A stretch of 64,000 nt of DNA from Crambe crambe (Eukaryota; Porifera; Demospongiae; Poecilosclerida; Crambeidae). Positions within the stretch are counted from its first letter, which is position 1, and every line of letters starts with the position of its first letter. The notes under the pieces are model-generated. The model was not told the DNA's origin. It saw only the letters and a program-made list of their open reading frames with translations, and searched no databases. Made by a program: the position numbers and the translations under genes. Below are positions 3,782 to 31,136 of this stretch, piece by piece. The DNA is taken from contig OZ004598.1 in NCBI GenBank assembly GCA_963924555.1, forward strand, positions 124,001 to 188,000. The letters are read 5' to 3'.

Positions 3782-4270
3782 TTATTTATCCTCTCCACTT
3801 GTGTTCGAATCTTGCTTTTTTGGTTCTAAGCTCTTGTAGTCCTTCTCATAGGATGATGCCAATTCAGTGGCTCTACCCAGTAGTAGATTCAACCGTGGAA
3901 TCTGTAATGTGGGATCTGTGTAATGCCACCACTCAAACAATGGGTTAGGTTTCACACAGGCAATAATTGCACAGGCTATTAAGTGCTCGAGTTATGGCCA
4001 GGCAGCAAATAATGCAGGAATCTAATGTGTGTCAGTGTGATAAGGTGGATGTGGCTACAACCATGGCAGTATTAAACACACTTAAGAATGACAGGATTGC
4101 TCTCAAAATTAGTTCACTCTAGCGGTCCAGAATGGTACACATTACCTGATAGTTTTGAGCAATGTAGACCCCAACAATTGTACCAGATGCTAACCCAATC
4201 TGAAATAAAACAAGTTAATCATATCACAATACATGCAGCACACACTTACCACCCATGACCACACTCCCAT
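3782..4270 (-). CDS. STMP1: STMP1-like mitochondrial single-pass micropeptide, 64 aa
   Basis: Three exons join in frame: 4250-4270 (21 nt, MGVWSWV), 4146-4199 (54 nt) and 3782-3901 (120 nt with stop). The middle exon encodes the hydrophobic segment GTIVGVYIAQNYQ, followed by IPRLNLLLGRATELASSYEK. Human STMP1 has the same order, GNVVGMYLAQNYDIPNL, then a charged Lys-rich tail. STMP1 is a very short inner-membrane mitochondrial peptide of about 47 residues in human, linked to respiratory-chain function; this copy has a longer polar tail. The individual exons are too short to be found by an open-frame scan. The gene is divergent from MRPL38 with 114 bp between start codons. Confidence is good because the motif spans an exon junction exactly. 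Confidence 0.82.
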
Positions 4271-4384
4271 TGTTAATAGCTGCTGCCAACAGTTTGCTTA
4301 GATGAAATTTGTTATGATGCGCATCAATTAAAATAGTGGTGCGCACTATTAGGGGTGACGGGCATTAATTAGAGTAATTTCCAC
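4271..4384. promoter_or_regulatory. shared promoter STMP1 / MRPL38
   Basis: This 114-bp gap separates two divergent start codons, both of mitochondrial genes. It contains GATGCGCATC and GGTGCGCAC motifs at about 4317-4356, which resemble NRF1 half sites. It probably acts bidirectionally. Confidence 0.45.
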
Positions 4385-26572: not shown

Positions 26573-26766
26573 CAGCAGTCAGTGGTTCTAGACTAACAGC
26601 AACTATATAGTATCCTATAGTATCCTATAGTATCTACACATGTAGTCATATTGGTACTAAGACTTTTAGAATAGTAGGTTAAACTTTATGTACAAGATGA
26701 GAAACTGCAAGCTATATATCTTTATTGTAATCTGAGAGTGATTATCTTCAAATCAAATGATACTAA

Positions 26767-29124
26767 TTAGGGATTGGGGTCACAGAGTATAGTGTCAATT
26801 ACTTTGTATCTTCGTTGGCCTGTGGAGGATGAAAAGACAGAGATGCAAAGCTCCAGAGAAGGACGAGATTGATTCACACTGGGGTTGCAGCTAAAAGGGT
26901 CACTGCTGTCTGTTAGACTCTTTAGCACATTCAAAAACTGTTGCTTTGCTCTCAAGTTTACATACAAGTTAGTAGGAGGCAGTTTCACTCCAGAGAAAAA
27001 CTTTTCTCCTTCCGATCCTGATGCTATAACTTCCACTTGTGCAGTATGGTCAGTTACAAGTAACGAGAAGGCATACATGAATCCCAGAAGCTTTGGCTCA
27101 AGTATGTCATCACTGTAACAGAAAGGACAGATATCACCAGCAGTGATGAGTTGGTTATAGTCTGCAGTTTGGGAGTTAGGAGTCACATAACGTGTCATGC
27201 AGCCACTGCAGCGGAGATGGCAAACATCCTCTAGTTTATTGCACACACTGCTGCCAAGTCCTGTCACTTGGACCACTGCAATGTGCACACTCCCTACAGG
27301 AGCTTTGAGGAGCTTGTCCAGAGTGGTGTGTTCACGACCCTCTGTACATGTCATTTTAGTGAACATATTTGGAAGGGAACTGCTAATTGTACTTGATGGC
27401 TGCAGGCTGTCAGATATGATCAGCCTGCTCTTAAATTCAGTGGCAACGTCACTATTGGCAGGAAGGACATTGACACAACCCTGGTAGTAAGGATGGTCTT
27501 GGATCATCAGCTCCATTGATGCATTACTAGATGACGCTTGTTCTGACTTTATCATGCAAATATTTGTCAGCTTCACGACATCCCCAGCAGTTACCTTTGG
27601 TTTGATTGCTGTGGTGACCTTCACAGTGCTAGTCAGTCCTTGGAAAGTGTGCTGGAGGGCAGGGTCACAGCTGACAGGAGTCAAAGACCTGCTCCTCTCA
27701 GCCAGTGGAGACTTGGGGAGGGTCCCATCAGACACAGTGAGGATAACTGGACCCTGTGGATCCAAGCAAACTTCCACCACCAAACACAGAGTCAAGCAAT
27801 AGTTAGCACAAGTCAATTCCTCCAGCTTGGAATTTAGCACTAAGGGCATCTCCTTCTGTGCCCAATCCTTTAATTGTTGTATTCTGGTTATTTCACTACT
27901 CTTCATTTCGTACCAATCGCCTATCGTATAAGGAATAGGTATAGCTGGATCGACTGGAAACACTCCCACTAAACAGGTTTCATGACCCATCCCCTGCAGA
28001 CAACCTTGGAAAGTGTTGATGGTTAGTCCTTTCAGCATAATCACTTCACCCGGGCTGCATACCACAGGTAATTTGTGCTTATCTGGGTTGAACAACACAC
28101 AAGAGATGTTTGCAGAACCAGAGGATGGACGGGAGTCATCTATCACGCCCAGAACTGTGAAGTAATCATTCCCTTTGGAGCTTGAGGGTGGCTTGAAATA
28201 CTTTAAAATTCCAGCAATTGCAGCTTCCTTTCTCCCAACTACCTAAAACGACAGTGACTTTAATACCAGTATAAAACAGGATTCATATTTATGATACCTG
28301 ATTTGCAATTCCAGCAAGTTGAGTATTGAAGTATCGATTCTTTGTTGGTCGACTGACACGTATAGCTGGACTTAGAGACAGGAGAGCCTTTCTCAAGGCT
28401 GAACTTCCATCGGCAAGATTGAGCTTGGAGGTATGTAGAGAAGATGGCATGGTAGTGGGAGGAAGATTCGTTGATGATGATGGAAGGTTACTTCTGGATT
28501 TTGTGACTTTTGGTCTTGCATGGGAGCTTGCCTGTTGCTGCTGAGGTTTGTCACCACCATCACCTACAACATAAGTAGTGTGTTATCCTTTTGTGTTCTT
28601 AAAGACTGCAAGGACTATAAACATACCTACCTTGTTTTCTGCACCAAGTCTTGAGCTGTGAGACCCTATTCCTCTCTGTAGGTCCCAATGAATAGTCAGG
28701 AAAGTCAGCACTTGATTTGAAATCCTCCTCTTTTCTGAGAAGGATCCAATTGTGTGCCTGGATAGCTATCTGGGAGCCTTCCTTCTCCTCCAAACCTGCT
28801 TTTCTCACACACAGTATATCTCCAAGGCATGGTGGGTGGGGCATATCACTGGACTTAGACAGGAATATGGAGCAGTTCACCTCAGCATTCGACTCGTCCA
28901 CAAGCATCACTTCATAGCCACTTTGAATCGCTCCTGGGAAAGGCACACTAGTCACTACCAGTCCTATCACATTAATGACCTGGAAGGGTACATGTGATGC
29001 GATTGAACCTATGCCATGAACAGAGGGGGACGGAACAGGGGAGGGAAATGAACGTTACCTTACGGTCTCCTGCTACCTTCAGTCTATCCAGTTTAGTATA
29101 AACAGTGCTCTTTCTTTTAGACAT
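26767..29124 (-). CDS. POT1: POT1 telomere protein with apparently duplicated N-terminal OB module
   Basis: Exons 29059-29124, 28631-28979, 28298-28563 and 26767-28242 join in frame to 718 residues (human POT1 has 634). Around residue 240, ILKYFKPPSSSKGNDYF and VIDDS match human POT1 OB1 (VKFFKPPYLSKGTDYC, IVDQT). RIQQLKDWAQKEMP matches the linker after OB1, and VNVLPANSDVATEFKSRL matches the end of OB2. The C-terminal part has CXXC pairs (CHLRCSGC, CPFC), as in the zinc-bearing C-terminal OB fold. Residues 10-150 show a second OB1-plus-linker copy: INVIGLVVTSVPFPG, VMLVDESN and RVSQLKTWCRKQ. POT1 binds the single-stranded telomere overhang and protects chromosome ends. The gene is intact and shares a 106-bp gap with NSFL1C. 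Confidence 0.87.
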
Positions 29125-29230: not shown

Positions 29231-31136
29231 ATGTCGTATGATAGCCAGCAGGAGTCCTTAATAGATAACTTTAGAGCAGTTACTGGAGTAGATAGAGAAA
29301 GAGCTCTCTTTTTTTTACAGTCAGCAGCATGGAACCTGGAGGTGAACACATAAATGCTTAATTACTGCTTTGATTTTCCTTGCTTGCAGGCTGCCATGGG
29401 AACATATTATGATGAAGCATCTCCCGAGAATGAACCAGTACCTAAAGAGGAGCCGGTAGGAATTCCACAACAAGAGTCATCTTCCTCCACTTCCTCAGAT
29501 CAGCCCACCTTGGCTAATACGTTGAACCCTCGATCTGTAAGAGGGTAAGTCTTATTTTACCTTTTCAGGTGTATAAATAGCCCAACAAACTTTTAAGAAA
29601 TTCGAATATAATAAGCATGATTCAGCGGTAGAAATCTATATTGAGAGGGGGAAGAATTGGGGATAGTACCTCTTTACTGTATTTCCATCTCCATTCAGAA
29701 GAGGTTTTGCTACACTTTCTGACTACAAAGAGAAGCTTATGTCAAGCCATGGGGAAGATGCTCAACAATTCTATGCTGGTGGTTCTGAGCACAGTGGGCA
29801 GATGATAGAGGGCCCTCCAAGAAAGAAGCAAAATCCAGAGAGTATTGCAAAGGATATATTTGAAGCAGCTAAGAAGTTGAGTAACAATAGATTCCTTGTG
29901 GTTGTATAATGATGCATGTAGGCATGGGGCAGTCAATGTCGAGGAAGAGGAAAGGGAGGAACAGAGACAAAGAGCGGCAGCATTCCAAGGTCAAGGATTC
30001 AGGCTGGGAGACACTGAAGGACCCAGCCCTTCTGTCGGAGAGGGAGCTCGGCCTCTACCACCAATGCCAAAAGTTGTAAGCTTTTACGTTGGGTTAATAT
30101 TTGTCATTATGTTACTGTTCATATTGTAGGCGAAGCATGTGCTATATTTTTGGAAGGATGGATTTTCTGTGGATGATGGTCCTTTACGGACAGGAGATTC
30201 CGAACAGGATAGAAATTTCATTGATGCTGTGCGCAAGGGGTCAGTTAAGAATTTCTTAGTCATTGGGGTTAGTTCAGAATTTCATGGTTTTATGTTAGGG
30301 AAAAGTACCAATATAAATATGGATCATCCCTTGATTATTGTGTGCAGGGAAATCCCCCCGGAATTATTGAAGGGTGCTCAAGGTGGGGAGGTAGATGTGG
30401 ACATTACAGACAGGAGGGATGAACTCTATGTCAAACCAAAACCCAAGCTTGTGGCCTTCTCTGGCCAAGGAAGGAAATTGGGCAGGTCAGCTACATAGTT
30501 AGGTGTAGCTCATTTCATCAAGTGATGTAGCTAGTTATTTTTTTCTATAATTAAATCATCTTTCTTAAAGCTGATTGCCTTCATTGTTAGTTATGCTCCT
30601 GAAGTGAAATCCTCTTCTACTGGGACGTCATCAAATACTTCATCCTCTGCTGCTGCTTCTCCTCCTCCTTCTGTTCCCCTTGACCCAACCCAACCCACCA
30701 CCTCACTTCAGATCCGCCTGGCAGATGGGACCAGGCTGGTGGCAAAGTTCAATCACTCCCACACTGTCAATGACGTCAGGCAGTTTGTCAACTTGTATCT
30801 TAACATCACTAAGAATTGATCATACAGCTCCATGTAATCAGAGAACCAAACTAAGCCTTGCTAGTAATGCATCAAGACAAGGCTAAGCTCCCTAACCATG
30901 TGAGATAGGCTGTACTGCATGCAAGCTAAACTCCCTAACCATTTGAGATAGACTGTACTGGTACATTGTATTTAGATGAATGCATAATTTTCCCCTGACT
31001 TTTGTGAAGATCACGTCCATCCTCTGATAACTACGTGCTGATGACAACTTTCCCTAACAAAGAGCTCTCTGACCCAACTATCACCCTTGCCCAAGCTGGA
31101 CTTCTAAACGCTGTCATAGTCCAAAGAAAAAGATGA
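29231..31136 (+). CDS. NSFL1C: p97 cofactor p47 (UBA-SEP-UBX protein)
   Basis: Eight exons are read: 29231-29341, 29390-29544, 29699-29875, 29922-30079, from 30130, to 30485, 30591-30794 and 31010-31136. The N-terminal UBA-like helix bundle ([20 protein letters not shown]) is followed by an acidic linker. A SEP domain comes next ([19 protein letters not shown] ... [11 protein letters not shown]), then a UBX domain ([18 protein letters not shown] ... [12 protein letters not shown] ... [11 protein letters not shown]). p47 recruits the p97/VCP ATPase to Golgi and ER membrane fusion and trims p97 shapes with ubiquitin. All three domains are present and the order equals animal p47. The 30794/31010 splice restores [17 protein letters not shown]. 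The gene is intact. Confidence 0.95.

Follow-up and report, generated by a model that had tools for sequence, protein, structure and literature searches.

A probable fast-diverging POT1 paralog with an additional OB1-class domain in the sponge Crambe crambe

The window gene and its domains

The window, which is the whole stretch of 64,000 nucleotides analysed here from the sponge Crambe crambe, carries a POT1 gene on its minus strand (29124-26767), with 4 exons encoding 718 amino acids (Table 1). Its introns, of 79, 67 and 55 bases, all have GT-AG borders, and by sequence the domains run module 1, linker, OB1 (here module 2), OB2 and OB3. Exon 2 has a coding score of +34.1 bits in its own frame, while none of its other five frames exceeds -0.7, and exon 3 scores 10.9 bits in frame, the best of its six frames. 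A pseudogene reading was rejected, the frame being open and codon-biased.

A divergent neighbour on the plus strand (29231-30498) has a UBA-like domain in its first exon and a SEP domain later (p47-type). Its ATG is 106 bases from that of POT1, so no coding exon lies between the POT1 start and the neighbour; a more distant upstream exon of POT1 is possible. The two genes probably share a promoter.

Table 1. Exons and domains of the window POT1 gene
Feature	Position in window	Strand	Remarks
Exon 1	29059..29124	-	Residues 1-22; start codon at 29124; GT donor, phase 0
Exon 2, bulk of module 1	28631..28979	-	AG/GT borders
Exon 3, linker (residues 139-213, approximately) plus the first part of module 2	28298..28563	-	
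Exon 4, remainder of OB1, OB2, OB3, stop	26767..28242	-	PF02765 and PF16686 matches
Module 1 (residues 9-138), predicted OB1-class domain plus its end helix	28632..29100	-	Spans intron 29058-28980
Module 2, regular OB1, about residues 214-359	27847..28339	-	Spans intron 28297-28243
OB2, residues 360-514	27382..27846	-	
OB3 region, residues 515-718	26770..27381	-	CxxC pairs at residues 572 and 599

After module 1 and the linker, the architecture is that of a regular POT1. The whole protein scores 62.6 bits against PF02765 (cut-off 29), the top stretch being residues 237-356 in module 2, and PF16686 follows OB1 with 28.9 bits (cut-off 27.2), identifying OB2. When module 2 was compared with OB1 of human POT1 and with that of a second POT1, encoded on contig C20 of this genome, none of 500 shuffles did as well. 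Exon 4 matches human POT1 (1xjv, 3kjo, 8soj) with an E value of 6.5e-12, module 2 and OB2 lying in the matching order, and the window OB3 resembles that of C20, CxxC pairs included. From the first to the second CxxC there are 27 residues in the window protein (27210-27118), and 25 residues separate the CxxC starts in C20 (residues 672-700). Human POT1, as described in PMC7617103, has a single, N-terminal OB1 and an HJRL domain within OB3; the CxxC spacings leave too little room for such a domain there in either sponge protein. The window protein thus differs from human POT1 both in this short spacing and in its extra OB1-class domain. For TPP1, the genome gave a single PF10341 match below the cut-off (G000:C11:6225518-6225646, E 0.144, 18.3 bits), which is perhaps a putative TPP1, the partner of POT1.

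A second POT1 and the divergence of module 1

The second POT1 gene (G000:C20:500940-503572; L003:3441-6073) has four exons and three introns, all of one phase, and encodes 817 amino acids. It is closer to human POT1 (E 9.4e-33) than the window protein is, and scores 90 bits against PF02765 and 53 bits against PF16686. Each of these profiles has two matches above cut-off in the genome, the window gene and C20; with a more canonical POT1 elsewhere in the genome, the window gene counts as its diverged paralog. The two genes share OB1-OB2-OB3 in one large last exon and similarly spaced CxxC pairs, with identities of 34/136 in OB2 and 33/133 in OB3. C20 differs in its N-terminal exon and in keeping D42, H82 and R83. 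Its first exon shows a five-strand OB-fold pattern by eye, with no support in Pfam (best E 0.1, an unrelated family) or in the PDB (best E 0.18, calmodulin), and may be a candidate for the OB-N of other animals. Two mini-exons of C20 (L003:4157-4207 and 4266-4304; 51 and 39 bases) are near-copies, each encoding GESSKRTED. No relative was found for window exon 4 in the viral collection or for the C20 protein in the viral and prokaryotic collections, searches that are silent on other sponges.

Several comparisons place module 1 in the OB1 class. Its sole Pfam match is PF02765, below the curated cut-off but over profile positions 4-138 of 140 (E 5.1e-4), and exon 2 alone matches the same profile with an E value of 0.0039. 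Module 1 shares 35% identity with C20 OB1 (E 1.3e-7), and hhalign gave 96.8% for the OB1 class, end helix included. On this sequence evidence module 1 belongs to the OB1 class, in a diverged form, and the sequence-only reading, which had placed an OB1-type domain ahead of a regular OB1-OB2-OB3, is upheld on this point. Module 1 showed no similarity to the N-terminal exon of C20 (hhalign 0.2%; BLASTP E 8.8), and 476 of 500 shuffles were equally good (Z -1.1).

Module 1 lacks most of the putative DNA-contact residues of OB1 that were compared. At eight OB1 positions in human numbering (K33, Y36, D42, F62, R83, Y89, K90 and Q94), module 1 has S, F, S, F, K, K, E and I, module 2 has K, S, D, F, G, F, Q and Q, and C20 OB1 has K, V, D, F, R, H, N and Q; retention is thus 1/8, 4/8 and 5/8, respectively, the loop positions depending on a four-sequence alignment with 18-30% identity to module 1. 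With C20 OB1 itself at only five, module 1 differs from it in the extent of the loss rather than in kind. K33 is taken here as one of the OB1 positions, structural roles are assumed for D42, Y9, R80 and H82, and the junction pocket of human OB1 is taken to consist of Y9, D42, R80, H82 and R83. Of this pocket, C20 OB1 retains four positions and module 2 two, a hint at a possible division of work between the paralogs. Y36, F62, R83, Y89, K90 and Q94 are published as variants or mutants with an effect on telomere binding or as disease variants, and D42 as a tumour variant only.

Of the two POT1s, the window gene has diverged further: its OB1-class branches are 1.92 (module 1) and 1.60 (module 2) long, against 0.56 for C20 OB1; the human branch is 0.88. 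The earlier suggestion that divergence is greater in the first copy is supported. A plain tandem duplication within the gene, also suggested, lacks support in that form: module 1 is nearer to C20 OB1 than to module 2, and the two group together in 89% of 200 bootstraps of a four-sequence tree. In that tree the alternative grouping of modules 1 and 2 is not rejected (p-AU 0.17), and adding Schizosaccharomyces pombe lowers the support to 60%. Module 1 may stem from an internal duplication or from a copy of the other paralog's OB1.

The telomere repeat

The usual telomere repeat is TTAGGG. In this genome (CTAGGG)n arrays in the proper orientation occupy 28 of the 36 ends of 18 large contigs, the repeats filling 94% or more of the final 600 bases. 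Ends without a CTAGGG array are both ends of C1, the start of C15 and the ends of C13, C17 and C21. The start of C12 (C12:1-3000) and the end of C10 carry an array in inverse orientation, either an internal array or an assembly error; on C12 a 20-base satellite lies on the outer side of the array. Genome-wide, (CTAGGG)4 has 40,889 exact matches (19,099 forward and 21,790 reverse, overlapping ones counted), and (TTAGGG)4 has two, both internal. A telomerase RNA-binding domain is encoded on C6 (57.9 and 34.6 bits). The vertebrate telomerase RNA model RF00024 had no match in the genome, in a weak search that scored 27 of 286 candidates. The TRF profile PF08558 likewise had no match, nor did its control, and no absence is claimed. 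Wnt genes, with 14 matches, mark the genome as that of an animal. No sponge study of CTAGGG telomeres appeared by title among the matches listed, and 'CTAGGG' is absent from the main text of the TeloBase article, as distinct from the database.

Efficient binding of (CTAGGG)n has been reported for human POT1 (PMC8492063), and diminished binding of CTAGGG for TRF1 and TRF2 (PMC3919612). A change to CTAGGG would therefore burden the duplex binders more than it would POT1. Any causal link from the repeat to the duplication of POT1 is conjecture.

Role of the N-terminal domain

The sequence-only reading assumed that animal POT1 begins with OB1, a premise that does not agree with the literature. Zahid et al. 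2022 (PMC9119445) describe an additional OB fold, OB-N, at the N-terminus of basidiomycete Pot1 and, citing Myler et al. 2021, report one in most metazoan POT1s. Four OB folds are therefore not new in themselves. According to that study, OB-Ns are nearer to one another than to OB1; the N-terminal extra OB of Ustilago maydis Pot1 does not bind DNA and helps to bind Rad51, and telomeres become shorter when it is deleted (PMC9119445). The window POT1 shares with these proteins the four OB folds, the extra one ahead of OB1, and the CxxC pairs of OB3, and differs in that its extra domain is OB1-class by sequence. POT1s with four OB folds are already known; the OB1-type extra fold is the unusual part. 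Among the papers listed on POT1 paralogs, OB-N, sponge shelterin and POT1 in Amphimedon, none described a POT1 with a doubled OB1, and by title none of those listed on sponge shelterin dealt with sponge animals; this coverage leaves out the main study of animal POT1 evolution.

Other animals also have multiple POT1 genes with separate roles, as rodents do with POT1a and POT1b and nematodes with their POT genes. The window and C20 genes resemble these in number, and we know of no rodent or nematode POT protein with two OB1-class domains.

Taken together, the window gene is probably a fast-diverging POT1 paralog with a diverged OB1-class N-terminus at the place reported for OB-N in most animal POT1s, as judged from its sequence. 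Module 2 and OB2 would still grip the G-strand overhang, here of CTAGGG repeats. Module 1 would have lost the OB1 contact surface and become an accessory domain, most likely one that binds protein, and the two paralogs would split the work at chromosome ends. We favour such an accessory, probably protein-binding role for module 1 over a longer DNA footprint because only one of the eight OB1 positions is kept. The proposal that the first copy has another ligand fits this count, and the larger DNA footprint suggested alongside it may exist but is the less favoured idea.

That module 1 works as a third DNA-binding OB, giving a longer footprint on the overhang or another register, is on balance unlikely. 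The domain is OB1-class in sequence, it keeps F62 and it has a basic R-K at human positions 82-83, but the other seven positions differ, with E in place of K90. A further argument against it comes from U. maydis Pot1, whose extra OB reportedly does not bind DNA, yet that domain is an OB-N and not of OB1 type (PMC9119445).

It is harder still to see module 1 as this lineage's version of the old animal OB-N, with no OB1 copied. It does occupy the position reported for OB-N, but its match to the OB1 profile is full-length, it has the OB1 end helix, its identity to C20 OB1 is 35% and it is unlike the one candidate OB-N compared, the C20 exon, itself unproven. Very improbable, finally, is a separate short transcript of exons 1 and 2 for an OB1-only protein outside the window POT1: exon 2 stays open beyond its donor, ending RKQGRYVYSPCSL before a stop, so that intron retention would yield a short protein, but the 67-base GT-AG intron 2 fits in phase, neither AATAAA nor ATTAAA occurs between exons 2 and 3, an AATAAA lies at 26726 downstream of the POT1 stop codon, and the neighbour's ATG is those 106 bases upstream of exon 1.

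We offer one bolder history, tentatively and as a minority possibility. An animal that went from TTAGGG to CTAGGG may have duplicated POT1 and retained canonical binding of overhang and junction in one copy; the other would have placed a second OB1 at the OB-N site and lost the junction pocket, the spare OB1 turning to a new ligand, with end protection shared between the two.

The extra OB fold reported in animal POT1s is regarded as not derived from OB1, and that of the window POT1 is by sequence OB1-class. One genome with two POT1s that differ in their N-terminal domains offers a natural experiment on the function of the N-terminal OB position. With CTAGGG telomeres, the POT1 pair becomes a testable case of co-adaptation, and an animal with this repeat can reveal which telomere proteins needed to change.
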